Translations under genes and position numbers: made by a program
Shown here: piece after piece, positions 272 to 60,369 of the stretch
Numbering within the stretch: the first letter of the stretch is position 1
Layout of the letters: every line of letters starts with the position of its first letter
Notes under the pieces: generated by a model
The model's database searches: none
Told to the model about the DNA's origin: nothing
The model's input: the letters and a program-made list of their open reading frames with translations, nothing else
Assembly (NCBI GenBank): GCA_002733805.1
Contig: NVXG01000038.1
Coordinates: forward strand, 1-60,369
Reading direction: 5' to 3'
Length of the DNA: 60,369 nucleotides
From: Robiginitomaculum sp.
GTDB lineage: Bacteria; Pseudomonadota; Alphaproteobacteria; Caulobacterales; Maricaulaceae

Positions 272-1456
272 ATGAGCAAACTGTTTCAAATTCCGCCGCG
301 CGCCAGCTTTGCGTCCGACCCATTGAAATCAAGAGGGCGATTGTTTGAGCAAAGCCCCAGCGCAACCCGCACCCCATATCAACGGGACCGCGACCGGGTC
401 ATTCATTGCACGGCGTTTCGGCGGCTCAAGCACAAAACCCAAGTTTTTATCGCCCATGAGGACGATTATTACCGGACCCGGCTGACCCACTCATTGGAAG
501 TGGCGCAAATTGCCCGCTCGATTGCGCGAGTATTGGGTCTTGATGAGGATCTGGCCGAAACCTTGGCATTGGGGCACGACATTGGGCATCCGCCGTTTGG
601 TCATGCCGGGGAAGACGTGCTTGACGAAGCCATGAAAGATTATGAGGGGTTCGACCACAACGCCCAGACCTTGCGGGTGATCACCCAGATGGAGCGGGTG
701 TATCCGGGTTTTGATGGGTTAAACCTGACGTGGGAAACCTTGGAGGGCATGGTCAAGCACAATGGCCCGATCAAGCTGTCCGCTGGCAAAAAACTGCCGT
801 GGGCCTTTCGTGCCTATGAAGGCTGGGATTGGCTGGAAACCCACACCTTTGCCGGGCCAGAGGCGCAAGTGGCGGCGCTGGCTGACGACATTGCCTATAA
901 CAATCATGATATTGATGACGGGTTGCGGGCCGGGCTGATTACGATAGAGCAATTGCTGGAACTGCCCATGGTCGGACCTGCGTTTCAAGGGGTGATCGAC
1001 CAATATCCCGGCCTGTCTGAAAACCGGATTATTCGCGAAGCTGTGCGACGGTTGATCGGATTTTGGATCAATGATTTGCTGAACGAAACCCAAGCCAATA
1101 TCAAAAAGCTAAAACCGCAAACCGCTGATGATGTGCGGATGCTGGATCAGCCTTTGGTCATTTTTTCAGCCGAAATGGAACGCAATATCGCCGTGCTTCG
1201 CACTTTCTTACTGGATAATCTGTATCGGCATTACAAGGTCAACCGGACGCGCAGCAAATCAAAACGGGCTTTGGGCAAATTGTTCGATGTGTTTTTAGAT
1301 GATCCGACCTTGTTGCCGCCGGAGCGGTTTCGTTTGACCAGCCAGACAGATAAAGCCAAAACGGCGCGCGTTGTGTGCGATTATATGGCCGGAATGACCG
1401 ACACCTTTGCATTAGAAGAATATAATCGGTTATTTTCGCTTGATGTGGAACTTTAG
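272..1456 (+). CDS. dgt: Deoxyguanosinetriphosphate triphosphohydrolase-like protein (dGTPase, HD domain)
   Basis: This cytoplasmic HD-domain enzyme (394 residues) is of the type that hydrolyses dNTPs to deoxynucleoside plus triphosphate. Metal-ligand motifs are visible in order: THSLEVAQ (His73), ALGHDIGHPPFGH (His102, Asp103, His106) and ADDIAYNNHDIDDG (about 205-216). Length and motif spacing fit the short type-2 dGTPase-like proteins common in Alphaproteobacteria rather than E. coli Dgt. The frame is open from 140, but I chose the ATG at 272 because the product then begins MSKLFQIPPRASFASDP, as family members do, and because the longer form would run into the start of the divergent erpA. 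A SPOR-domain gene follows after 52 bases. In many alphaproteobacteria argS lies between these two genes; it is absent here. Confidence 0.92.
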   Translation: MSKLFQIPPRASFASDPLKSRGRLFEQSPSATRTPYQRDRDRVIHCTAFRRLKHKTQVFIAHEDDYYRTRLTHSLEVAQIARSIARVLGLDEDLAETLALGHDIGHPPFGHAGEDVLDEAMKDYEGFDHNAQTLRVITQMERVYPGFDGLNLTWETLEGMVKHNGPIKLSAGKKLPWAFRAYEGWDWLETHTFAGPEAQVAALADDIAYNNHDIDDGLRAGLITIEQLLELPMVGPAFQGVIDQYPGLSENRIIREAVRRLIGFWINDLLNETQANIKKLKPQTADDVRMLDQPLVIFSAEMERNIAVLRTFLLDNLYRHYKVNRTRSKSKRALGKLFDVFLDDPTLLPPERFRLTSQTDKAKTARVVCDYMAGMTDTFALEEYNRLFSLDVEL

Positions 1457-1508
1457 GCTGGTTTCTAATATCTGGAACTGATTCGAAACAAATGCCGGGA
1501 ACGGGAAG

Positions 1509-2228
1509 ATGACGGATAAGGATCGCGGCGTGTATTCTCCGCCACCTGATCAATATGATCGATTTGACGTTGGTGAAGAGGACGACTCGCGGCGCGGACC
1601 GTTGCTGCTGGTCGTGGCTATTGCGGTTTTGATCGCCTTTGCGGCGGTCATATATACCGCCTATCATCAGGGTATCAGGTCCGGCGGGCGCGATGATGCT
1701 CCATTGATTGCGGCTGAAACCAGCCCGGTTAAAACCGTCCCGAATGATCCGGGCGGCAAACCATCGGTTGATTCTGATAACGCTGCGTATGATCCGCTAG
1801 ACGGAAATACCGGGAAACGCGAAGTAAGTATTGCGCCGCCGCCGGAACAACCCATTGAACGCGCGCCAGAGCGCAAGCCTGACCCAAAACCGGAACCCGT
1901 AGCAACCAATCGCCAGCCCGATCCGATTGCTACCCAACCTGTGCCCGTGGTTCGCGCGACCATTCCGGTGCAATCCGATGGCCGCTATGTGGTGCAATTG
2001 GGGGCGTATCGTTCAGAAGAACAAGCACTGGACAGTTGGGCCAAACTGCGGAACCGCCTGCCCGTGGTAATGGATATAACCACCGCTGATGTGCAGCGGG
2101 CTGATTTGGGGGCCAAAGGGATATATTACCGGCTTCGCGCCGCCGCCTTTGGCGACCGGACCACCGCAACGGCTTTTTGCAACGCATTAAAAGCCAAGGG
2201 GCAGGACTGTATCGTCGTTAGTCGATGA
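1509..2228 (+). CDS. SPOR-domain membrane protein
   Basis: This 239-residue protein is predicted to bind denuded peptidoglycan. It has a short cytoplasmic N-terminus with an acidic stretch, one membrane helix (about residues 31-51, GPLLLVVAIAVLIAFAAVIY), a long Pro/Glu/Arg-rich periplasmic linker, and a C-terminal SPOR domain (about 158-239, starting GRYVVQLGAYRSEEQA). SPOR domains recognise glycan strands lacking stem peptides and often mark division proteins. The ATG at 1509 has a GGGAAG ribosome-binding sequence just upstream. Its stop overlaps the nagZ start (ATGA at 2225-2228), so the two genes are almost certainly translationally coupled. This fits a joint role in cell-wall turnover. 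No closer family name is justified. Confidence 0.85.
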   Translation: MTDKDRGVYSPPPDQYDRFDVGEEDDSRRGPLLLVVAIAVLIAFAAVIYTAYHQGIRSGGRDDAPLIAAETSPVKTVPNDPGGKPSVDSDNAAYDPLDGNTGKREVSIAPPPEQPIERAPERKPDPKPEPVATNRQPDPIATQPVPVVRATIPVQSDGRYVVQLGAYRSEEQALDSWAKLRNRLPVVMDITTADVQRADLGAKGIYYRLRAAAFGDRTTATAFCNALKAKGQDCIVVSR

Positions 2229-3232
2229 GTGCTTCAGCCATAATCTTTGGATGTGAAGGCACCACGCTTTTGGCCGATGAGCGGGCATTGTTCGCCGATG
2301 TGCAGCCGTGGGGCTTTATTCTGTTTGCTCGCAATCTTGAAACGGATGCCCAGGTCAAAAAACTGATCGCGGATTTGCGACAAACCGTGTCGCACGATCC
2401 GCATATCTTTGTGGATGAAGAGGGCGGGCGGGTTTCGCGTTTGCGCGCTTTGGGCGGGTGGATCGGTCCACCGGCCATGACTTTTATTCAAGCCAAAGCC
2501 AAAACACCGGATATTATTGCGGCGATCCGGGCCAATTACTGCGCCATTGGCGCGCGCTTGGCCGAATTGGGATTTACCGCCGATTGTGCGCCGGTACTGG
2601 ACGTACCAACCGACACTGCTGATCCGATTATCGGGGATCGGGCATTTTGCGTACAACCGGAGCAAGTTGCGCCCTTGGCCCAAGCCTGTCTGGATGGATT
2701 GAATGATGCCGGCATTGCCGGGGTGATCAAGCATATTCCGGGTCATGGCCGGGCCGATGTGGATAGTCATTTGTCCCTGCCCATTGTCACCACCAAACAT
2801 GCCGAACTGTCCGCAACGGATTTTGTTCCGTTTCAGGCATTATCTTATGCCAAAATGGCCATGACTGCCCATGTGGTCTATTCGGACATTGATCCCGACC
2901 ATGCGGCCACAACCTCACGTAAAGTCATCAAACAGATAATCCGGGGCGAAATTGGCTTTGCCGGATTGTTGATGAGTGATGATCTGGAAATGAAGGCATT
3001 GCCCGGCACCTTGCAACAACGGGCGGAACAATCCTTGGCTGCTGGGTGCGATATATTGCTGCATTGCAGTGGGGATTTTGCCGCCATGCAGGAGCTGGCC
3101 AAAGTGGTTCCCACCTTATGTGATTTTGCGCTGGAACGGGCCAAGCGGGCGGCCCCGGCCGGGCAATCTGCAAAGATAGGCGTGGACCAGGCCATTTTGG
3201 CGGCGCAATCTGCACGGGCTTTGCTGGGCTAA
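2225..3232 (+). CDS. nagZ: Beta-N-acetylhexosaminidase NagZ (GH3)
   Basis: This cytoplasmic glycoside hydrolase family 3 enzyme (335 residues) removes GlcNAc from anhydro-muropeptides during peptidoglycan recycling. The diagnostic loop is intact: KHIPGHGRADVDSH (residues 169-182) supplies the catalytic Asp180/His182 dyad, and SDDLEMKA carries the nucleophile Asp252. The substrate-binding DEEGGRVSRL is at 64-73. Length matches the family. The start overlaps the end of the SPOR gene by four bases. The gene sits between a SPOR protein and scpA, a typical alphaproteobacterial arrangement. In organisms with inducible AmpC, NagZ products feed beta-lactamase induction; no ampC or ampR is seen here. 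Confidence 0.95.
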   Translation: MSASAIIFGCEGTTLLADERALFADVQPWGFILFARNLETDAQVKKLIADLRQTVSHDPHIFVDEEGGRVSRLRALGGWIGPPAMTFIQAKAKTPDIIAAIRANYCAIGARLAELGFTADCAPVLDVPTDTADPIIGDRAFCVQPEQVAPLAQACLDGLNDAGIAGVIKHIPGHGRADVDSHLSLPIVTTKHAELSATDFVPFQALSYAKMAMTAHVVYSDIDPDHAATTSRKVIKQIIRGEIGFAGLLMSDDLEMKALPGTLQQRAEQSLAAGCDILLHCSGDFAAMQELAKVVPTLCDFALERAKRAAPAGQSAKIGVDQAILAAQSARALLG

Positions 3233-3297
3233 CCTCCCTTGCGGATTGGGGTGGGCATTAGATACTATCAAGGGGTAGTGATTCTGGGGCGCATAGC

Positions 3298-4140
3298 TTG
3301 ACCAATATGGAATTTGAAGAAGATATACGTTTTGAGGCATCTGATGATGCTGCGCAGGATGGTGTGCAGTCAGCACAAGTCTTACGCGTTGATCTGGATG
3401 GCTATGAAGGGCCGCTTCATATCTTGCTCGAACTGTCGCGCAAACAAAAAGTCGATTTGCGCAATATTTCCATTGTGGAACTGGCCGAGCAATACCTCGA
3501 ATTTATTCGCCATATCCAATCTTTGCGTATTGAGTTGGCGGCAGATTATCTGGTGATGGCCGCATGGCTAACCTACCTCAAATCCAGATTGATTTTACCC
3601 AAGCCCAAACAATTGGACGATGGCCCCGGCGCCGATGATATGGCCGCGATATTGGCGTTTCGTCTGCAACGACTGGCCGCGATGCGCGCCGCGTCCAAAG
3701 CGTTGATGGCCCGTGATCTGCAAGGGGTGCATGTTTTGTTGCGCGGTCAGCCAGAAGGCGTGCGGCGCATTCGTTCCCCGATTTATCAAGCCAGCATTTA
3801 TGACCTGCTGTCGGCCTATGCGACCCGCCGTTCGCGAACCTCGCGGGCCAGAGTTGTTTTCAAGAAACCGGTACTTCTAGCCTTGGAAGAAGCGCGGCAC
3901 CGCTTGGAAAAAATATTGGGAAAAATGTCTGACTGGTTATCGCTCGACCAGTTGGTGATTGATTTCAATCTAACCACAGATGGGACCGGACCGCCCCGGT
4001 CCAGCTTGCTGGCATCCTCTTTGGTTGCCTCTTTGGAATTGGCCAAAGAAGGCCGCGTTGAATTGCGACAAACCCAAGCGTTTGCGCCGCTGTTTGTACG
4101 TCCACGCCCCGGTGCAACAAAAGATGGGATTGCCTCATGA
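3298..4140 (+). CDS. scpA: Segregation and condensation protein A
   Basis: ScpA is the kleisin subunit that bridges SMC heads and, with ScpB, forms the bacterial condensin needed for chromosome compaction and segregation. The product is 280 residues from a TTG at 3298, or 277 from the ATG at 3307; no ribosome-binding site decides between them. The kleisin N-terminal core is recognisable at LDGYEGPLHILLELSRKQ, followed by the helical AAWLTYLKSRLILPKP and a C-terminal winged-helix-like part (LGKMSDWLSLDQLVIDF). Its stop overlaps the scpB start (ATGA at 4137-4140), so ScpA and ScpB are made together, as expected for complex partners. Confidence 0.93.
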   Translation: MTNMEFEEDIRFEASDDAAQDGVQSAQVLRVDLDGYEGPLHILLELSRKQKVDLRNISIVELAEQYLEFIRHIQSLRIELAADYLVMAAWLTYLKSRLILPKPKQLDDGPGADDMAAILAFRLQRLAAMRAASKALMARDLQGVHVLLRGQPEGVRRIRSPIYQASIYDLLSAYATRRSRTSRARVVFKKPVLLALEEARHRLEKILGKMSDWLSLDQLVIDFNLTTDGTGPPRSSLLASSLVASLELAKEGRVELRQTQAFAPLFVRPRPGATKDGIAS

Positions 4141-49175: not shown

Positions 49176-49266
49176 GGAGAGGTGGCCGAGTGGTCGAAGG
49201 CGCTCCCCTGCTAAGGGAGTAGGCGGTGCTCCCGTCTCGAGGGTTCGAATCCCTTCCTCTCCGCCA
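49176..49266 (+). tRNA. tRNA-Ser (anticodon GCT)
   Basis: A complete class II tRNA of 91 bases including an encoded CCA. Acceptor arms are GGAGAGG and CCTCTCC with discriminator G. The anticodon stem is CTCCC/GGGAG (49203-49207 and 49215-49219) with anticodon GCT at 49210-49212. The variable arm is long, and the T-loop GGTTCGAAT is normal. TTGAAC (49140-49145) and TTAGAC (49162-49167), 16 bases apart, could be its promoter. The 3' end is followed by AT-rich sequence and an integrase fragment, so the tRNA has been used as an integration site. Confidence 0.97.
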
Positions 49267-50734: not shown

Positions 50735-50901
50735 CAAACTAGGGGCACATCACTGGTTCATCTGGTTGACTATATTAAGCGGCGTACTTTCGGTTTTCCA
50801 AACATTATAGAGAATGGGTGTAAGGAAAATTGAAGGACCTTGCGGTCTATATCTGGCATGGTATCGTAAATACGACCTTGGGTGGAGTAGCAAAGTCGAT
50901 C

Positions 50902-51456
50902 ATGGGAATCATGCCGAATATGCAACGCGAGGAACTATCCGCCCTATATATTGAGCAGCAGGCCGCGTTGTTGCGTTTCCTGATTGCGCGTTTGCGCAAC
51001 CCGACGCTGGCAGAAGATGTATTGCAGGACTTATACATCAAACTGGCCGAATGCCGTCTGCCGGAACAAATTGAAAATCAGACTGGCTTCCTGTTTCGGA
51101 TGGCATCCAATCTGGCGTTTGACCATATTCGTAAAATTAAACGTTCGAAAGTTCGCGATCATGCTTGGAGTGATCTCAACCATGAAAAAATAGGCAATGA
51201 TTACAAAATAGACACGCCTCATGTCGATGACGCACTCATCGCCAAAGAACGACTAGCAGCATTGATGCTATGTTTGGAAAGTTTATCTCCCAAGGCGCGA
51301 GAGGCTTTCACGCGACATAAAATTCGGGGTCAATCTTACCGACAGGTCGCAGATGAGATGGACATAACCATCGGTACGGTTGGAAAACATATGGTAAAAG
51401 CGTTAAAGCACATTATGAGCGGTAATCTTGAGGATAGCGAAAATGAACGTAACTAA
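50902..51456 (+). CDS. ECF-family RNA polymerase sigma factor (FecI-like)
   Basis: This 184-residue sigma-70-family factor has region 2 in LRFLIARLRNPTLAEDVLQD and LYIKLAECRLPEQIENQTGF to MASNLAFDHIRKIKR, and region 4 in LCLESLSPKAREAFTRHKIR followed by SYRQVADEMDITIGTVGKHM. It is followed by a FecR-type regulator and a TonB receptor with a signalling domain, so it most likely directs transcription of the receptor gene when the ligand is bound. The ATG at 50902 is chosen, with others at 50911 and 50920; no ribosome-binding sequence settles this. It begins 149 bases after the IS remnant. Confidence 0.88.
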   Translation: MGIMPNMQREELSALYIEQQAALLRFLIARLRNPTLAEDVLQDLYIKLAECRLPEQIENQTGFLFRMASNLAFDHIRKIKRSKVRDHAWSDLNHEKIGNDYKIDTPHVDDALIAKERLAALMLCLESLSPKAREAFTRHKIRGQSYRQVADEMDITIGTVGKHMVKALKHIMSGNLEDSENERN

Positions 51457-51582
51457 CCGAAAAGATATTTTTGTATGGGGGTATGATAGTGTTGGCGGCG
51501 TCATAGTACATAAGAGCGGGTGTATGTTCTCCATATGCCAGATCGACACAAATACCATCGCAGCACAAATGCAGGCAAAAAT

Positions 51583-52578
51583 ATGAATACCCAAAGCAAC
51601 TTTTCTGCGGATATTCTCGAGGAGGCGCAAATCTGGCATGCCCGCCTGTCTGATGATCAGATGGGGCAAAATATCTGGATAGACTTTACCGTCTGGCTCG
51701 AACAAAGCTCGTCACATGCCGATGCCTATGATGCGGTTGAACTGGCCATGTTCGAGATTTCTGCACCAAGTGCTGTTGAAAATGTGGAACACGCCGCTGA
51801 GCTGCAGGCTGATCATGCGACGATTCTGCCTTTTTCTAAGCCAAAGAAAAAGCGGCTTTTCTATCGGGAGATAGCGGCAATTGCCGCCGTGCTGATGGTC
51901 GGGCTGATGGTCATGAGCCAGATCGATATTTTTGCTCCTCAAGTCGAAACGGTCCAATATGCTACAAATATTGGTGGCCAGCGCGATGTTGTCCTTTCTG
52001 ATGGAACACGTGTTACCTTGAACACAAATACGCAGCTAAGCGTGGTTATGGATAAGAAATCGAGACGGGTTAATCTTGAAAGTGGAGAGGCTTTTTTTGA
52101 GATAGCAAAAGATCAGGAACGACCATTTCTTGTGATGGCAATGGGCACGCAAATTACGGATATTGGCACTTCATTTAATGTTTATGCCACTGAAAACCGG
52201 CTACAAGTGTCAGTAGTCGAGGGAATTGTTGAACTGTCGGCATCCACTGAAAAAGTACGCTTGACCAAAGGCATGACCGGAACACAATTCCGCGGAAAAC
52301 CTTCTTTTCATGTTGCCTCTGTTGATATTGATATAATTTCCACCTGGCGCAACGGCGTGTTAGTATATGAAGATATACCGCTTTCAACCCTTATCCCAGA
52401 AATTAATCGGTATTTTGAAACCCCAATTGTTATTGAGGATTCCAATATCTCAGCCTTGACATTTTCTGGCGCTCTTAACATCCGAGATGAGCACAAAATG
52501 CTTCGCTCTTTGGCAGCGCTTCTGCCGATCAAAACTGAGGAAAAGAACGATCAAATCCTAATTAGCTCTCAGCGTTAA
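51583..52578 (+). CDS. FecR-type anti-sigma/signal-transducing membrane protein
   Basis: This 331-residue protein holds the ECF sigma factor in check and passes the signal from the TonB receptor. It has an N-terminal cytoplasmic DUF4880 segment (EEAQIWHARLSDDQMGQNIW), one transmembrane helix (about 99-118, IAAIAAVLMVGLMVMSQIDI) and a periplasmic FecR domain (DVVLSDGTRVTLNTNTQLSV, LESGEAFFEIAKD, GTSFNVYATENRLQVSVVEG). A C-terminal STN-like DUF4974 domain follows (IPEINRYFETPIVIEDSNIS). The ATG at 51583 gives the usual short N-terminus. It lies 126 bases after the sigma gene and 18 before the receptor gene. Confidence 0.9.
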   Translation: MNTQSNFSADILEEAQIWHARLSDDQMGQNIWIDFTVWLEQSSSHADAYDAVELAMFEISAPSAVENVEHAAELQADHATILPFSKPKKKRLFYREIAAIAAVLMVGLMVMSQIDIFAPQVETVQYATNIGGQRDVVLSDGTRVTLNTNTQLSVVMDKKSRRVNLESGEAFFEIAKDQERPFLVMAMGTQITDIGTSFNVYATENRLQVSVVEGIVELSASTEKVRLTKGMTGTQFRGKPSFHVASVDIDIISTWRNGVLVYEDIPLSTLIPEINRYFETPIVIEDSNISALTFSGALNIRDEHKMLRSLAALLPIKTEEKNDQILISSQR

Positions 52579-52596
52579 AGAAATTGGAAATGGGAC

Positions 52597-55101
52597 ATGG
52601 CTTTGCCTTCTTTTCATAAGCAGAGGCTGAAATCGTTGTTATGTGGCTGCGCTGTTTCCTTATGCGCACCGCAATTTGCAACCGCCGCAGAAACCGCATC
52701 GGATGTTATTGCGCCAATCCTGCTTGATCTACCGGCGCAGTCGCTTGATCGTGATATTCGAGACATTGCGCTGCGGGCCAATATTACCATTAGTTTTTCA
52801 AGGCGGGCCCTTAAAAAAATAGAACGAAATGCATTGCGCGGTAGTTATAGCGTGGCCAAGAGCTTGGCGGTACTGCTTCAAGGAACCGAGTATTCATTTG
52901 AGTTTGTTAACGCCAGTACCGTGCGTATTTTTAAGATTAGGAAGCATAGAAAGAAACGGAACAAAGCGCCGGGCCCGCTTCAGAAGTTGAAACCACTTCC
53001 CGCTATTTTGCCAAGGGACGAAATTATAATTACGGCCAACAAGCGAAAACGCTTTGATTTGTTGCAATCTGCACCCTATAGCGCCAGTGTTGTGTCTGGA
53101 GAAACATTGTCACTACTGGGCATTGTAAAGACACAATCACTAAGTCTCTATATTCCGGGTATTGAAATGACCAACCTCGGGTCCAGCCGAAATAAAATGT
53201 CAATTCGAGGCATTTCAGATGGCGTGTTCAATGGCCGGACCCAATCCACCGTCGGGGTGTATTTCAATGATACACCAATCAATTTCAACGCGCCTTTTCC
53301 AGATATCCCGCTTTTGGATGTAAAAAGCCTTGAAGTCTTGCGTGGGCCGCAAGGGTCTTTGTACGGCACCGGGGCAATCGGCGGCATCTATAAGATTACC
53401 ACCAACAAGCCGGATACACGAAATGTCGATGGGTGGATTGAAAGCGCTTTGTCATCGACCAGACATGGGGGGACCAACAGTGAACTTTCCGCGATGGTTA
53501 ATCTTCCTATTATTCAGGATAAGGTGGCCGTGCGTGGGGTTGGTTATCTCCTTCGCAATAGCGGATATATTGATGATACCCGCCTTGGTCTAACGGATGT
53601 AAACAAGACGGAAATCAAGGGAGGGCGCGCCAATTTAGCTTGGCAACTATCATCGGACTGGCAAATGAGTATCGGAATTGGTTTTCAGGATGTGGAAACG
53701 GATGACACCCAATATCGTTTGGCCAATTTGCCCGGCCTTGCCCGGCAAAATTATCTGCGTGAACCACACGGTGATGATTTTATTCACACCCATATCAATA
53801 TTGTCGGGGATCTTGAATGGGGACACATTAAATCAAGTACATCGCGGGTCGCTCGAGATATTCATGATCTGTTTGATGCATCTCTTTCACTGCCCGATAA
53901 TGTGTCGAGACCAGTTCAGTCGGCCAGTTTTGCCGAAAACCGAAAAATTGACTTTATTTCACATGAAACAGTCCTTGATTTCGACTTTTCAGATAATGTC
54001 AATCTGTTGGTTGGTGGGTTTATCTCGCACACAAAAAACGACTACCAATCCGATTATGGAATTGTCGCCAGTGGAGCCCAGCCACGGGAAACCCTGTTCA
54101 GTGAAGTGCGGGACGACAGCACGCTGCATTATGGGGTCTTTGGCGAAGCTGACGCCCATTTAACGGACAAGTTGTTGCTTGGGCTTGGTATTCGGTGGTT
54201 TGACGAGCATTTGACAACAAGCACCATTGTTACAGACATTGGTAAAGCGCCCGCCACAATTCGGGGCGAAAAAAAAGATAGTGATATTCTGCCGCGGATC
54301 AGCTTGGGATATCAGTTCACCGACGATTCCTTTGTCTATGGTTTGGTTTCTGTAGGGTACCGTGTTGGAGGGTTGAATACAGGGAGTATTTTGAATTCTT
54401 TTGCGCCGGTTACCACCGAGCAAGACTCAGATAATGACGAAGCGCGGCTTTCGGTATTTGAATCGGATGTCATCACGATGTACGAGATCGGGGAAAAAAC
54501 CCGCTGGTTTGATGATCGTCTTGTCTTTAATGCCAGTGCGTTTCTGGTCGATTGGAAAAATATCCAGACCGATCATATTCTCGAAAATGGGTTTTCCAGT
54601 GTGCTAAATGCTGGCGATGCTATTAATCTTGGCTATGATTTTGAACTCGTTTGGAAACCGAATGAAAATTTTGTTTTTCAGGCAAATGCCACGATCAATA
54701 ATCCCGATGTAACAAATATAAATCCGGTTTTTAGTGGCGTTGTAACTGATCAACATCTTCCGCGTATTCCTGATTTTGCGGGCAGCATAATCCTCAGCTA
54801 TAAGAGGAGGATACCCAACACACTTTGGCAAAGTACTTGGACAGTTGACTATGCGTACACCGGGGTCTCTCAGCTCAGTTTTGCACCGACAGATGCATTG
54901 TTGCAGGGGGAAAACCATGTGTTGAACGCGCGTGTAAGTTTCAGTGACGGCAATTGGCAAATCGAAGGCTTTGTACAGAATATCTTTGATGATCAGTCCA
55001 ATACATTTGCCTTTGGCAATCCCTTCACCTTTCGCAAACAAAAGCATTCCACGCCACAGCGTCCTCGTACAATTGGCGTGCGCATGCGGCGTAATTTTTG
55101 A
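52597..55101 (+). CDS. TonB-dependent receptor with N-terminal signalling (STN) domain
   Basis: This is an 834-residue outer-membrane transporter. A signal peptide (about 1-30) is followed by a STN domain (about 44-105, LDLPAQSLDRDIRDIALRAN to GSYSVAKSLAVLLQGTEYSF), a TonB-box-like DEIIITANK, the plug (SIRGISDGVFNGRTQSTVGV, LRGPQGSLYGTGAIGGIYKI) and the 22-strand barrel ending in the usual terminal Phe. The STN domain means ligand binding is relayed to the FecR protein encoded just upstream. The ligand is unknown; iron-siderophore is the commonest case, but no biosynthetic or ABC transport genes are nearby to support it. Confidence 0.92.
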   Translation: MALPSFHKQRLKSLLCGCAVSLCAPQFATAAETASDVIAPILLDLPAQSLDRDIRDIALRANITISFSRRALKKIERNALRGSYSVAKSLAVLLQGTEYSFEFVNASTVRIFKIRKHRKKRNKAPGPLQKLKPLPAILPRDEIIITANKRKRFDLLQSAPYSASVVSGETLSLLGIVKTQSLSLYIPGIEMTNLGSSRNKMSIRGISDGVFNGRTQSTVGVYFNDTPINFNAPFPDIPLLDVKSLEVLRGPQGSLYGTGAIGGIYKITTNKPDTRNVDGWIESALSSTRHGGTNSELSAMVNLPIIQDKVAVRGVGYLLRNSGYIDDTRLGLTDVNKTEIKGGRANLAWQLSSDWQMSIGIGFQDVETDDTQYRLANLPGLARQNYLREPHGDDFIHTHINIVGDLEWGHIKSSTSRVARDIHDLFDASLSLPDNVSRPVQSASFAENRKIDFISHETVLDFDFSDNVNLLVGGFISHTKNDYQSDYGIVASGAQPRETLFSEVRDDSTLHYGVFGEADAHLTDKLLLGLGIRWFDEHLTTSTIVTDIGKAPATIRGEKKDSDILPRISLGYQFTDDSFVYGLVSVGYRVGGLNTGSILNSFAPVTTEQDSDNDEARLSVFESDVITMYEIGEKTRWFDDRLVFNASAFLVDWKNIQTDHILENGFSSVLNAGDAINLGYDFELVWKPNENFVFQANATINNPDVTNINPVFSGVVTDQHLPRIPDFAGSIILSYKRRIPNTLWQSTWTVDYAYTGVSQLSFAPTDALLQGENHVLNARVSFSDGNWQIEGFVQNIFDDQSNTFAFGNPFTFRKQKHSTPQRPRTIGVRMRRNF

Positions 55102-55130: not shown

Positions 55131-55220
55131 AATCCCCAAGCAGCGGCGTCATCAAGATACCAGAGCAGAGCTTTTGTTCTGGAATTCAGACAGGCGACAC
55201 CAGCCACTATATTGGGGATT
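55131..55220 (+). promoter_or_regulatory. Long-range inverted repeat enclosing the ribosome-binding site
   Basis: AATCCCCAA (55131-55139) and TTGGGGATT (55212-55220) are exact 9-base reverse complements 72 bases apart. The right arm contains GGGGA (55214-55218), the likely ribosome-binding sequence 5 bases before the ATG at 55224. Pairing in the mRNA would hide it, so the leader may control translation of the small exported protein. Confidence 0.4.
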
Positions 55221-55223
55221 TAT

Positions 55224-55754
55224 ATGATAAATTATCGCAAACTCGCAATGACAACCATTGCTCTTACGTGCCTGAGTTTAGGCGCACCCACTGTATCTGT
55301 AGCGCAAGATGCGGGATTTGGGTTAACCAAGCAGGAGCCTGTTTTTCGTACGGTAGCCGGCTTTCACCTGAGCATTCCCTTCGGAGCTAAGGCAAAGCAG
55401 GAAATGTATAAACCGCGGTTGGGTTTTGCCATAAACATGGAGCGCCAATTAAATGAACGCGGGTATGGCGTGCCTCTGAGGGCAAAAATCAACGCGTTGG
55501 ATTTTGGTTTCGGTTTTGACGGCCGCCCGATCATGATCGTGGGAGGGCAGGACGTCTATACACCTATATTCCGGCCCGATGAAGTTGCCTATATTGCAGG
55601 GGCAGGCACGTCGAGAAATACCTTCCTAATCATTGCTGGCGGCGTATTGGCAACCGGGGCCATTGTTGCCCTTGCCAGTAGTAGCAATGGCAATGGAAAT
55701 GATCGTGATTCCAACGGCCGAGATCGGGATGGAGATAGCGACGATAATGGTTAA
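55224..55754 (+). CDS. Small exported protein with C-terminal helix and Asp/Asn/Gly-rich tail
   Basis: I do not recognise this 176-residue protein. It has a Sec signal peptide (about 1-28, ending VSVAQDAG) and a soluble middle (GLTKQEPVFRTVAGFHLSIP, ERQLNERGYGVPLRAKINAL). A hydrophobic segment follows near the C-terminus (about 133-152, TFLIIAGGVLATGAIVALAS), and the tail is an alternation of Asn, Gly, Asp, Ser and Arg (about 25 residues) that looks disordered and possibly cation-binding. ATG 55224 is preferred over TTG 55212, which would start inside the leader inverted repeat. It follows the TonB receptor by 122 bases in the same direction and is convergent with apbE. Confidence 0.65.
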   Translation: MINYRKLAMTTIALTCLSLGAPTVSVAQDAGFGLTKQEPVFRTVAGFHLSIPFGAKAKQEMYKPRLGFAINMERQLNERGYGVPLRAKINALDFGFGFDGRPIMIVGGQDVYTPIFRPDEVAYIAGAGTSRNTFLIIAGGVLATGAIVALASSSNGNGNDRDSNGRDRDGDSDDNG

Positions 55755-55931: not shown

Positions 55932-56801
55932 TCAGCGGATGCACCACGCGCGAAGATGTTCTTTTTTTAGAAAGCGTTCTGCCCGCTCGCCCTGCAACAT
56001 GGCCATAGTGGACAATACCCCGGCTTCCATGCAGGTGGGAGCCGATACCGTGACGGACCGTGGAGGGTTTTTCACAGGCCATCCCGTGCGCGGATCCAAT
56101 ATATGGCTGTAACGGATTCCATCTTTTAGCAAATAACGTTCCGCATCCCCGCTGGTGGCCAAGGCTCCGTTATGCAACGCCAACATCGCCTCGTTCTTGT
56201 TTTTAATATCCACAGATAGCAGGCCAATTTTCCAGGCGCTGCCGTCTGAACGTGACCCTGTTGCTCGCAAATCGCCTCCAAAATTCACCAAAGCCGGTTG
56301 GTCCGTGAGCCGTTGCATCGCCATCAATGCGCGGTCCACTGCGTATTCCTTACCCACCCCCCCCAAATCAACCTCCATGCCTGGGCGCAAGGTCAAATAG
56401 GGTGCAGACCAGGTCAGCTTATCCCACCCTATAAGTGGCAATATCTGCTCTACTTCTTTTTTTGAAGGTATTTTGTTTGATCCATCAAATCGCCATACAC
56501 GACGCAAAATCCCTGATGTAATATCGAATTGACCATTGCTCAATTCGAAGCATTGCTGCGCATAATTGAGGAGGTCAGATGTCTCATCATCAACCTTGAT
56601 GGGTTCGTTGGTCGCTTGGTTGATGCGTGCGATGATATTGTCATCGCGGTAGCGACTGTATTTCTTCTCAATTCGTAGCGCCTCGGCCTCGACAACTGCA
56701 CCGACACGCTGGATCAGGTCTGGGTCTTGCGTTTCTACCCGCACTTCGCATGGTGATGCCATGGCGCGAAATGTGTGTTTGAGAGAAGAGGAAAGAGTCA
56801 A
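55932..56801 (-). CDS. apbE: FAD:protein FMN transferase ApbE
   Basis: ApbE moves FMN from FAD onto a Ser or Thr of a target protein through a phosphoester bond. This 289-residue protein shows FRAMASPCEVRV at the N-terminus (the M-G/A-x-P-x-E type), SNGQFDITSGILRRVWRFDG, the metal and flavin region MEVDLGGVGKEYAVDRAL, FGGDLRATGSR and the signature SHILDPRTGWPV. Translation seems to start at a TTG (56801, MTLSSSLKHTF); an in-frame TAG upstream rules out a longer N-terminus, so no signal peptide or lipobox is visible, unlike most Gram-negative ApbE proteins. It is the last gene of the tlpA-DUF4266-DUF3570-apbE operon, 30 bases after DUF3570. Confidence 0.92.
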   Translation of the reverse strand: MTLSSSLKHTFRAMASPCEVRVETQDPDLIQRVGAVVEAEALRIEKKYSRYRDDNIIARINQATNEPIKVDDETSDLLNYAQQCFELSNGQFDITSGILRRVWRFDGSNKIPSKKEVEQILPLIGWDKLTWSAPYLTLRPGMEVDLGGVGKEYAVDRALMAMQRLTDQPALVNFGGDLRATGSRSDGSAWKIGLLSVDIKNKNEAMLALHNGALATSGDAERYLLKDGIRYSHILDPRTGWPVKNPPRSVTVSAPTCMEAGVLSTMAMLQGERAERFLKKEHLRAWCIR

Positions 56802-56831: not shown

Positions 56832-58244
56832 CTAACGAAAAGCGTAGGAATAACCGACAATAATACTGTTGGAAGTTGCACCACTAAACAAGTCACGCCC
56901 GGCCAGATAACCCGGCGCATTCGCTTGACGGTCCTTTCCTGATGGTTTGTAGTGACTGAATCGAGCATATACTTCCCCTGTCCGGCCAATTTTATATCCA
57001 ATCAATAGGCTTGGCGTAATCGCACTAAAACTATCCAATCGGCTATCAGCGCTGGCAAATTGGGGAAGAGCCTCATTGTCCTGTAGGAAATACCGAAAGA
57101 AATCCGCGCCTGATTGTGTGTAATACCGTATTCCTGGTTCGATATATAAAGAACGGCCTAATGGAATATGCTGTGATGCTTTTAGGGTCAGAGAATCAAT
57201 GCCCCAATTGTCATGGTATCCGCGGACCGATATATTGGTGACCATATCTCCAATGGATATCTTGTTACCAAAATAGATACTTTGCCGAGTGCGACTTTCG
57301 GGTCGCGACTCATAAAGATACTGGTTTGGGCCGCCGGTGATATGATCAACAACCGAAATAATCCGGTAGGGGTCAGTCTGGTACCCGTCGCTTTTGGTGA
57401 CCGTATAATTGAGTTGCGCCAACCAGCGCCGATTCATGGTTTGGGTGATACCGATCAGCCCGCCAACCGTTGTCTTGTCTCGGTTTCCATTTTTGAGGTC
57501 CCCACTCATTACATCAAATGAGGTTGGATTTCCGATACTTGGTTTTGAGGTGTCAAACTCGAAATTTCCAGATACTGTAATCGTAGTGTTTTTCTGGTTC
57601 ATATCCTTTGAAAAACCAATATTTCCATAGATCGCGGTGTAGTCTGTTTCGAAAGAACCACCTGCACCTATGTTTGCTGTGGTGCCCTTTCCCCATGGTT
57701 TGCTATAGCTAATATCAACCGCGTAACGTTTGTCGTTAAACCCCGAGGCCAACGGCAATTGATTGGGATCAACGTCCGTACTGACGATGCTCAATCCATT
57801 GGCTCCAGGAGTGACAACAGCGCTGCCAGATGCCCCGGTTCCTCCGTCATCACCAGGTTTGATACCTGCTACAAATGTTTGAGTGCCTTTCCAAGGCGTT
57901 GCCCCGAACGGTGAGGCCCCGGTGAGCACATCGGCGGTAAATTGCAGGCTTAGTGCCGATCCATCTGTATTGTTAAAGGTCACGCCAAACACCGGCTCAA
58001 TTGCTTGCACCCGCCCTCCGTCTTCCTGGTACACCAAGACTGCACTGTCTAAACGGGTCAGGCCTTCGTCGGTATAAGTATCTCTATCGTCGAGGCCAGA
58101 GTCGAACTCTGGCCGAGTTGGGTTATCTTGGTTTATGGTGGCAAGTGTATCTGATTGTGCGTGCACACCGCCGGCCAAAAGGCTGGCGGTCATCGCGCCT
58201 AGCAGCCCAGCAAGGTTTCTGTTTTTCTTTCTCGTTAGTTGCAT
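56832..58244 (-). CDS. DUF3570 family exported protein with two ApbE-type flavinylation motifs
   Basis: This 470-residue protein has a signal peptide (about 1-30, ending VHAQSD) and a beta-rich body with many alternating hydrophobic strands and a terminal aromatic-rich strand (SIIVGYSYAFR), like an outer-membrane barrel. It resembles the DUF3570 family. Two sites fit the ApbE acceptor pattern Dxx(S/T)GA(S/T): DVLTGAS (105-111) and DGGTGAS (133-139), giving Ser111 and Ser139 as possible FMN attachment points. ATG 58244 is used rather than a longer in-frame start because it gives a clean signal peptide and a 10-base overlap with the DUF4266 gene. The apbE gene directly follows. That the protein carries FMN is an inference from motif plus neighbour. 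Confidence 0.82.
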   Translation of the reverse strand: MQLTRKKNRNLAGLLGAMTASLLAGGVHAQSDTLATINQDNPTRPEFDSGLDDRDTYTDEGLTRLDSAVLVYQEDGGRVQAIEPVFGVTFNNTDGSALSLQFTADVLTGASPFGATPWKGTQTFVAGIKPGDDGGTGASGSAVVTPGANGLSIVSTDVDPNQLPLASGFNDKRYAVDISYSKPWGKGTTANIGAGGSFETDYTAIYGNIGFSKDMNQKNTTITVSGNFEFDTSKPSIGNPTSFDVMSGDLKNGNRDKTTVGGLIGITQTMNRRWLAQLNYTVTKSDGYQTDPYRIISVVDHITGGPNQYLYESRPESRTRQSIYFGNKISIGDMVTNISVRGYHDNWGIDSLTLKASQHIPLGRSLYIEPGIRYYTQSGADFFRYFLQDNEALPQFASADSRLDSFSAITPSLLIGYKIGRTGEVYARFSHYKPSGKDRQANAPGYLAGRDLFSGATSNSIIVGYSYAFR

Positions 58245-58501
58245 CCGCAACCTCCCCCGCTGGCGCTTTGCCCTCCGGTCGAGGCTTCTTTCGAATAATT
58301 GGTGTGGATATCTATGCTGGCGATCATACGGTGGGTGACCGGGCGCATCGTGCGCTTGGCCAAAAGATCTCGTTCCCATGGCTTAACGCCCAAAGAGCTG
58401 CATCCGGCCAAAATTCCGATCGCACCTATCATCAGCAATACCAAACTAGGTCGAGGGGCCAAACCCCTCTTTTTTTGTTTGGATTTATTGTGAATTTTCA
58501 T
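58235..58501 (-). CDS. DUF4266 family small lipoprotein with Cys-rich C-terminus
   Basis: This 88-residue protein has a basic N-terminus, a hydrophobic signal and a lipobox ILAGC (Cys34), so the mature part is only about 55 residues. It begins CSSLGVKPWERDLLAKRTM, matching the DUF4266 pattern, and ends SASTGG-like (EASTGGQSASGGGCGCN) with Cys85 and Cys87 in a glycine run. The closing CGC could bind a metal or form a disulfide; EASTGGQS is a weak relative of the flavinylation motif. It overlaps the thioredoxin gene by 17 bases and DUF3570 by 10. ATG 58501 is chosen over TTG 58504. Confidence 0.8.
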   Translation of the reverse strand: MKIHNKSKQKKRGLAPRPSLVLLMIGAIGILAGCSSLGVKPWERDLLAKRTMRPVTHRMIASIDIHTNYSKEASTGGQSASGGGCGCN

Positions 58502-58985
58502 CAATTAACTCCTTGATATGTGATGTATATTCAGTCGTTTTGTCGTCGTGATATCCAGAATGGACGTAACGGATTTTGCCCTTCCGATCGATCAGAACGG
58601 AGGTTGGCATCGACTTGATATCGAATTGTCGGGCGATTTTTCCCTGGGGGTCATACAATGTCGGACAGGGCGCTTGAATTTGGGAGAGAAATTGGTCCGC
58701 TTTTTCTCGATCCTTATCCACATTAATCAAAATAATTTCGAAATCATCTTGTGGATAATTCTGTGCGAGGTCGTTCATAAATGGAAATGACTGCTGGCAG
58801 GGCCCACACCACGATGCCCAAAAGTCGACATAGATAACTTTGCCCTTGTGCTCTGCCATATCCAAGGCAATTTCTGGAGCCTTGGCGTGAGCAACTCCAA
58901 ACATCAGGAATGATGCAATTACAACCGAGGCGGCCCCCCGGGATGCGGAGTAGAGTTGTAATAAGAATTTATCAGAAAATGGCAT
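58485..58985 (-). CDS. TlpA/ResA-like exported thioredoxin
   Basis: This 166-residue periplasmic thiol-disulfide protein has a signal peptide (about 1-35, ending VAHAKA) and a thioredoxin fold with the active site FWASWCGPCQQ (Cys60, Cys63) and the cis-Pro loop KSMPTSVLIDRKGKIRYVHS. The WCGPC form and the ResA/TlpA layout suggest reduction of cysteines in exported proteins. It is the first gene of the operon that includes the Cys-ended DUF4266 lipoprotein, which is its most obvious partner. There is no gene on either strand in the 512 bases upstream. Confidence 0.9.
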   Translation of the reverse strand: MPFSDKFLLQLYSASRGAASVVIASFLMFGVAHAKAPEIALDMAEHKGKVIYVDFWASWCGPCQQSFPFMNDLAQNYPQDDFEIILINVDKDREKADQFLSQIQAPCPTLYDPQGKIARQFDIKSMPTSVLIDRKGKIRYVHSGYHDDKTTEYTSHIKELIDENSQ

Positions 58986-59497: not shown

Positions 59498-60369
59498 CTA
59501 ATATCGAACCCGCAGATCCACTAATGCAACGGTTCCATTTCTGGTGTTACCAGAGATGAATTTTTCATCGAATACCACAAAATCGGAACGCAAGATCAAA
59601 TTTTTGGTTAAGCGAAAACTACCCCCTAGTCCATATAGGTTTCGCGAGGAACCGAAGCGTGTAATATGCGCGTAAGAACTAGCTATTGTCCATTTCTCCT
59701 CACGCCAACTGGCCCCTGCATTGAACTCTTCTTCATCTCGTCCAAAAGCCGCATTACTGTCGCCGCGCACAACATAGGCACCACCCAAGCGCAACTTGTT
59801 CCAGCGCGCCTCCGCCCCAATGCTCCATGAATCAATATCTTCACGTCCTGTGATCGGATTAGAATTGGCGGTTACATAGGCCCCGCTAATAGCCAGCACC
59901 ATTTTATCATTGATGGGTGTTTGATACTGGGCGGCAAATTCAATCGGGTCGGATTGAAGGGTTCTGCGCCTCGGATCAGGGTTGGTGGGGTTGACCCGCA
60001 ATTCAGGTCCCCAAGAGGCCCCGAACCGAAGTCCTCCTATTGGCGGGGAAAGGTAAATAACCTTGAATGTATCTTGCGAATCAAATGGCTTCAGTCGAGC
60101 TACGGATCCGGCGTATCTCGCAAAATCACCTCGGATCTGGCCCGTCCCGACCGTGGGCGCGTGCAGGGCAAAGGTGTCGGCCGGGCCATCTTGCTCGCCG
60201 ATTTCTATCCGACCCCACGGCGTCGAAACATATCCATATATTTCGTCGAGTTCCACATCATCAGCCGTTGGATCCGCGTCACTTTCAGCATCAAAATCCT
60301 GATCGACTTCGACGCGTAGCCCGACGAGCCAACCATTTGAAAAAATCCGCTGCAAGCGCAGGCGAGCGG
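59498..60369 (-). CDS. Outer-membrane porin, C-terminal part (gene continues beyond window)
   Basis: The reading frame is open to the right edge of the window, giving 289 residues of a larger protein; the signal peptide and first strands are outside. The visible part is a beta-barrel with alternating strands and acidic loops: GWLVGLRVEVDQDFD, then a Glu/Asp-rich loop, IYGYVSTPWGRIEIGEQDGP (the porin_4-type constriction region), many Tyr/Trp-ended strands and the C-terminal strand VALVDLRVRY with a terminal aromatic residue. It fits the alphaproteobacterial general porin family. The substrate is unknown. It is transcribed in the same direction as the tlpA operon but separated from it by 512 bases. 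Confidence 0.85.
   Translation of the reverse strand, partial: ARLRLQRIFSNGWLVGLRVEVDQDFDAESDADPTADDVELDEIYGYVSTPWGRIEIGEQDGPADTFALHAPTVGTGQIRGDFARYAGSVARLKPFDSQDTFKVIYLSPPIGGLRFGASWGPELRVNPTNPDPRRRTLQSDPIEFAAQYQTPINDKMVLAISGAYVTANSNPITGREDIDSWSIGAEARWNKLRLGGAYVVRGDSNAAFGRDEEEFNAGASWREEKWTIASSYAHITRFGSSRNLYGLGGSFRLTKNLILRSDFVVFDEKFISGNTRNGTVALVDLRVRY

Follow-up and report, generated by a model that had tools for sequence, protein, structure and literature searches.

A DUF3570 protein encoded beside an apparently signal-less ApbE in Robiginitomaculum sp. as a predicted flavinylated outer-membrane barrel with an outward-facing flavin

The DUF3570 protein encoded in a 60,369-nucleotide stretch of Robiginitomaculum sp. 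DNA (GenBank assembly GCA_002733805.1, contig NVXG01000038.1; hereafter the window) most likely carries one or two covalently bound flavins on the outward side of an outer-membrane barrel. The system to which it belongs is most likely a cell-surface flavin reductase fed by the thiols of a thioredoxin-like protein and of DUF4266. A study from 2021 had already reported flavinylation of DUF3570 (Meheust et al., PMC8238504, DUF3570 passages), and the window locus is a rediscovery and a further member of the family. The additions made here are predictions, namely the location of the flavin and an attaching enzyme that would act inside the cell before export. Taken jointly, a flavinylated outer-membrane barrel with an outward flavin is favored with modest confidence. 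The fuller reading is given somewhat less than an even chance; here, a cytosolic ApbE would flavinylate DUF3570 before Sec, the cofactor would reach the surface through Sec and BAM, and the product would be a heme-free conduit across the outer membrane with DUF4266 as its arm.

The locus consists of four genes on the minus strand, proposed to form a small envelope redox system. A thioredoxin-like protein of the TlpA/ResA type (58485..58985; Pfam Redoxin, E = 1.7e-24, and AhpC-TSA, E = 1.9e-19) has a WCGPC active site and, in its translation, a signal-like N-terminus; its best NCBIfam matches, ResA and DsbE, fall below their curated cut-offs. A small DUF4266 lipoprotein (58235..58504; PF14086, E = 1.5e-17) has a lipobox, LAGC, recognized by eye. 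Both genes lie upstream of DUF3570 on the same strand, and the 3′ end of DUF4266 overlaps the start of DUF3570 by 10 bases, which suggests coupled translation. DUF3570 (56832..58244) comprises 470 residues, and PF12094 is its sole Pfam match (E = 3.8e-94; residues 63-466, profile positions 32-426 of 427); the same scan found no FMN-bind domain of the NqrC/RnfG type in it. The apbE gene had been noted as the next gene, and a same-strand match to PF02424 at 55932..56801 bears this out (E = 1.3e-71; profile positions 1-262 of 266, TTG start). Upstream of the thioredoxin gene and on the same strand, a Porin_4 gene (59498-60367) is cut by the contig end. Genes for a sigma factor, FecR, and a TonB-dependent receptor, possibly iron-related, occupy 50830-55101 on the plus strand, convergent with the flavin cluster. 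A 180-residue protein encoded at 55212-55754 has a signal-like N-terminus, an N/D/G-rich C-terminal tail, and no Pfam match. No RNA family was found near the cluster; the window's single match, at 49176-49263, is a tRNA.

DUF3570 contains the two sequences originally proposed as ApbE sites, DVLTGAS (site 1, residues 105-111; 57912..57932, minus strand) and DGGTGAS (candidate site 2, residues 133-139; 57828..57848, minus strand). Both fit the pattern Dxx[ST]GA[ST] exactly, with predicted FMN attachment at Ser111 and Ser139. A third exact but unconserved fit, DLFSGAT (residues 451-457; 56874..56894, minus strand), had been overlooked. Of 20,000 shuffled versions of the protein (from residue 31 onward), 0.82% contained one or more matches to this pattern and 0.005% two or more; the motif count is well above chance. 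ApbE recognizes D-x-x-[S/T]-G-A-[S/T] and attaches FMN to the last residue, according to passages of a 2025 review (PMC12052999). In Chlorobium luteolum, DUF3570 is flavinylated by its cognate ApbE, and the modification is lost only when both serines are changed to alanine (PMC8238504, DUF3570 passages). The idea that the window DUF3570 is an ApbE substrate is thus correct yet not new, because the result for a homologue was already in print. For the window protein itself, flavinylation is highly likely.

The published clusters resemble the window closely. Passages of PMC8238504 describe clusters of thioredoxin-like, DUF4266, DUF3570, ApbE and, in part, DsbD proteins, count 316 clusters without DsbD, and report that DUF3570s associated with flavinylation have two conserved [S/T]GA[S/T] motifs (logo from 228). 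The window has the same domain (PF12094), two such motifs, and the same four genes, with apbE in the cluster. However, it differs from the published DUF3570s by an insertion around site 2 and by the third motif. The thioredoxin family named in those passages, PF13899, is not among the matches of the window thioredoxin-like protein. Compared with the DsbD-type clusters, the window has the thioredoxin-like protein and the DUF4266 CxC, but no DsbD was found beside its cluster. The DUF3570 passages of PMC8238504 neither place the protein in the outer membrane nor remark on an absent ApbE signal peptide. A full-text search of open PubMed Central found no DUF3570 literature besides PMC8238504; the name does not occur in the accessible text of a 2024 paper with three shared authors (PMC11334425). 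Neither an outward-facing flavin nor cytosolic attachment was found in print in the searches of the same open literature.

The conservation of the sites was assessed in 102 distinct aligned DUF3570 frames. These are the best matches per search, mostly from the phylum of the window, and form a non-random sample. Linkage to apbE was classified for 94 of them. Four frames were excluded, L012 (a 912-residue frame), L040 (cut by a contig end), and L077 and L105 (no DUF4266, poor alignment), and four with less than 900 bases of downstream sequence (L018, L051, L083, and L100) were left unclassified. L014, whose apbE lies upstream on the other strand, L037, L097, and L098 were set by hand as linked. 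L074 was set as unlinked because its ApbE carries a signal peptide and is encoded on the opposite strand. The term apbE-less denotes that no apbE was found with at least 900 bases downstream, and some loci hold only about 1.3 kb there.

Site 1 is a conserved feature of the apbE-linked proteins. Residues D105, G109, A110, and S111 are each conserved in at least 90% of a 71-sequence alignment chosen from the 102, and the site-1 motif is present in 60 of the 66 apbE-linked DUF3570s. In the region of sites 1 and 2, [ST]GA[ST] occurs in 64/66 apbE-linked but 9/28 apbE-less proteins, seven of the latter having it at site 1; the two linked exceptions, L006 and L044, have TGSS at site 1. Conservation is wide at site 1 but not at site 2; a motif after site 1 is found in only 12 of 68 sampled rows with ApbE, one of which (L033) overlaps site 1. 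A second motif aligned with site 2 is present in 11 of these 68 rows, counting the window and leaving out L033. The window shares TGASG with L097 and L098, its two nearest orthologues, whereas the Asp is present in the window only. Several other branches have SGAS or SGAT at site 2, and in 44/68 rows, both Psychrosphaera records among them, the loop carries F[ST]xPSG. The scarcity of a second motif sits uneasily with the two conserved motifs reported in the DUF3570 passages of PMC8238504, although the samples differ. Judged from these alignments, the number of flavins per DUF3570 probably varies between one and two. The third motif was rejected as a family feature, as the last 60 residues of the other 101 aligned proteins contain no [ST]GA[ST]. 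L097 and L098 have NLFSGVK at this position, and beyond the column of residue 150 only three [ST]GA[ST] occur in 32,302 residues, the window's among them. DLFSGAT may still be modified, and could then give the window DUF3570 a further flavin.

A constant neighborhood of DUF3570 and apbE is not found. No apbE lies near 28 of the 94 classified DUF3570s, most of which belong to one deep clade. In this main apbE-less clade, 21/25 proteins are without the site-1 motif and mostly have SSAS, SNAS, or SAAS instead, such that the site-1 Gly is lost while the Asp and Ser are kept. Loss of the motif would seem to reflect one or few events, mainly in this clade. Co-variation of the motif and apbE was considered as independent evidence and rejected; the raw Fisher test gives p = 3e-11, but the signal comes mostly from a single deep split of the tree. 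Only four changes map onto the tree, and the co-occurrence is not significant in independent pairs. The counts of motif and linkage are thus descriptive only.

The original prediction described DUF3570 as beta-rich and possibly located in the outer membrane, and two AlphaFold2 models together with Foldseek support this. The model of the window protein, built with 70 relatives, has a pLDDT of 84.4 and a pTM of 0.83, with 330 residues at 90 or above, and that of the relative L004 has a pLDDT of 95.2 and a pTM of 0.88. Both contain a barrel of 16 long strands, not counting short strands within loops. In the window model, the odd loops measure 4, 59, 2, 21, 29, 4, 28, and 21 residues, and the even turns 5, 4, 4, 2, 2, 3, and 3. 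All 50 Foldseek matches listed for each model are outer-membrane barrels; the matches listed are not close (TM-scores of 0.50 or less, normalized to query length). Sequence searches found no solved relatives, one of them returning two matches at chance level (E = 0.18-0.19). The N-terminus of the window protein is signal-like by eye, and 98 of 101 DUF3570s have an aromatic residue among their last three. With an even strand number, short periplasmic turns, a signal-like N-terminus, and a C-terminal aromatic, DUF3570 is very likely an outer-membrane barrel.

The sidedness of the barrel was assigned from loop lengths, as outer-membrane barrels usually place their long loops outside. In the window model, strand 3 carries site 1 at its predicted extracellular end, and site 2 is within the 59-residue predicted extracellular loop L2, which is poorly modeled (pLDDT below 50 at residues 133-135). 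Loop L8, also predicted to be extracellular, holds the third motif immediately ahead of strand 16. In the L004 model, strand 3 spans all of site 1, which puts the equivalents of D105 and S111 on one face. The Asp, being charged, should point into the lumen and, since S111 shares its face, the model suggests that the FMN should do so too. Conservation is concentrated on the predicted outer side, although such barrels usually vary most in their outer loops. Of the 37 positions conserved in at least 80%, 34 are on the predicted extracellular side (34/249 aligned columns vs. 3/134 on the other side; Fisher p = 1.9e-4), and 21 of these 34 are Asp, Glu, Arg, Tyr, or Trp in the window. These residues point to a conserved, charged pocket at the extracellular mouth of the predicted barrel. 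With the orientation taken from loop length, the flavin is likely to be extracellular.

The cluster ApbE has no evident export signal. In the window, 14 residues separate the upstream stop from the conserved RAMASPCEV, leaving no room for a signal peptide. ApbE N-termini were compared by a simple hydrophobicity measure and by eye in 66 loci with a usable cluster ApbE; the comparison omits the duplicates L063, L064, L099, and L109 as well as the ApbE of L074 but includes that of L014. The sequence preceding the domain is 25 residues or shorter in 32 of these loci and 45 or shorter in 55. No hydrophobic stretch precedes the domain in 63/66; the in-frame stretches of L037, L095, and L016 are taken to precede the real start, a judgment made by eye and, for L095, also through its close relative L094. 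Median hydrophobicity is 1.97 before the DUF3570 barrel (102 proteins) vs. 0.25 before the ApbE domain. A signal peptide, Tat-like sequence, or lipobox is visible in seven of nine control ApbEs, the second ApbE of this genome among them, whereas L107 and L108 show none. The short N-termini and the absence of an evident export signal, set against 7/9 controls, suggest that the cluster ApbE is probably cytosolic. Beside the nearest orthologue, L098, the apbE (13-1865) is split over three overlapping frames, through either a sequencing error or a broken gene.

Attachment of FMN to DUF3570 in the cytosol, before export, is accordingly considered the more probable order, with moderate confidence. 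A tag of seven residues can serve as an ApbE substrate, and a terminal position suits it better than a surface loop (PMC12052999, passages); the C. luteolum DUF3570 produced in E. coli, from constructs described as truncated for the signal peptide or similar, is mostly in the pellet yet flavinylated (PMC8238504, DUF3570 passages). Both observations fit attachment to an unfolded chain. However, the C. luteolum apbE may have a signal peptide, because it was cloned in a way ‘similar’ to the signal-peptide-truncated A. ursilacus apbE. A cytosolic ApbE is known from Klebsiella pneumoniae, where it serves fumarate reductase (PMC12052999, passages). Like the window ApbE, it has no signal peptide, but its substrate stays in the cytosol, whereas that of the window is predicted to be exported to the outer membrane. 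In the proposed order of events, the signal-less ApbE would add FMN to Ser111, and probably to Ser139, of the DUF3570 precursor while this is still unfolded in the cytosol, the site of FAD synthesis. Sec would then export the FMN-bearing chain, BAM would fold it into the 16-strand barrel, and the FMN would end in the charged pocket at the extracellular mouth. Should FMN indeed be attached ahead of export, the sequence of these two steps would be unusual for a cofactor.

The thioredoxin-like and DUF4266 proteins could supply electrons to this flavin. The window DUF4266 ends in a Gly-rich GGGCGCN, and a C-terminal CxC is present in 100/100 DUF4266s paired with sampled DUF3570s, apbE-linked or not; two further rows have no DUF4266 match. 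The window DUF3570 contains no Cys, and the barrel region is free of Cys in 94 of 99 family members counted, the window included. Large thioredoxin reductases have a C-terminal redox arm, and the Gly-rich CxC tail of DUF4266 is similar in idea. DsbD has been proposed to feed the thioredoxin/flavin system, and the CxC may undergo redox cycling (PMC8238504, DUF3570 passages). None of the 16 window ORFs scanned, from 39350 to the window end, encodes DsbD; elsewhere in the same genome, a DsbD-like frame is cut by a contig end. In L036, a DsbD with all its domains follows apbE. Electrons would pass from DsbD to the exported thioredoxin and on to the CxC at the tip of the DUF4266 tail, which would act as a swinging arm and reduce the FMN from inside the barrel. 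From the reduced FMN, electrons would go on to an extracellular acceptor such as ferric iron. The path from thioredoxin through DUF4266 to FMN has about an even chance of being right. However, the CxC tail is equally constant in apbE-less clusters, and thus independent of the flavin, which argues against a role tied to FMN alone. A metal as the acceptor is doubtful. L097 adjoins a P-type ATPase with a heavy-metal binding domain, and the VIT1 iron transporter occurs in 25 clusters (PMC8238504, DUF3570 passages).

Three other readings accept parts of this scheme or none of it. The strongest of them, though improbable, keeps the flavinylated outer-membrane barrel but loads FMN in the periplasm, through an exported second ApbE or through export of the cluster ApbE by an unrecognized route, with the flavin serving periplasmic partners only. 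In its favor, the N-terminus of a second ApbE encoded in the genome is Tat/lipobox-like, most ApbEs are secreted (PMC12052999, passages), and site 2 and its loop are poorly modeled. Against this, the dedicated ApbE has no evident export signal here or in 63/66 loci, and the long odd loops and the conserved pocket are on the predicted extracellular side. The second ApbE lies on contig C26 (1518-3673) near a frame with DGISGAT and a membrane protein that is PepSY-like by eye, so the genome seems to have two separate ApbE systems.

A still less probable reading reverses the electron flow. The surface flavin would be oxidized by oxygen or another outside acceptor, and the system would be a thiol oxidase that keeps thioredoxin and DUF4266 oxidized. 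Thiol oxidases also have CxC pairs beside flavins, and the direction of electron transfer cannot be read from sequence. However, TlpA/ResA-type thioredoxins and DsbD are reductive components, and the locus has such a thioredoxin, with DsbD adjacent in L036. It is very improbable that the motifs are structural remnants in an unflavinylated DUF3570, with the neighboring ApbE idle or acting elsewhere. The apbE-less relatives, which keep D105 and the SxAS positions without the Gly, do indicate that this element has a structural role too. However, 73 of the 74 proteins not listed in the apbE-less clade retain G109, the window ApbE matches nearly the whole Pfam model, and a homologue is flavinylated (PMC8238504, DUF3570 passages).

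Under the preferred reading of a surface flavin reductase, a parallel is offered by the porin-cytochrome conduits of the MtrB/PccB type, which likewise have an outer-membrane barrel in a proposed outward route for electrons. Chain B of the Mtr complex (6r2q_B), which we take to be MtrB, is match 44 of the window model among the Foldseek matches listed. However, those conduits are heme-based, whereas the window is predicted to use a flavin and thiols with a 16-strand barrel; no CxxCH, as expected of a multiheme c-type cytochrome, was found in the four cluster proteins. If correct, the window system would be a flavin/thiol counterpart of porin-cytochrome complexes. Flavins outside the barrel would provide a cytochrome-free way of moving electrons through the outer membrane.

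PF12094 is found in 1 of 61 genomes in the search of relatives, namely the window's own, in 5 of 385 genomes of its class (four above the cut-off), in 29 of 398 drawn from its phylum, and in 62 of 247 from another order (61 above the cut-off). DUF3570 was not found in PLSDB plasmids. Its occurrence in the window's genome alone among those 61 could reflect either gain by transfer or repeated loss. A contaminant contig was considered and is unlikely, because each of the 12 genomes of the genus that were searched has a match to another gene of this contig (39350-41173), one of them 90% identical.

Two kinds of relatives have further features. The L012 frame (1390-4125; 912 residues) contains DUF3570 followed by a long extension, maybe a further domain. 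In the apbE-less clade (e.g., L067-L085), thioredoxin-DUF4266-DUF3570 clusters retain the CGCN tail. It may be asked whether these clusters are a flavin-free version of the same module. Where the window protein has Leu at residue 70, His is invariant in this clade (25/25). Two loci of the clade, L070 and L076, were scanned, and two small upstream genes there match SH3_3 and, partly under the cut-off, OMP_b-brl.
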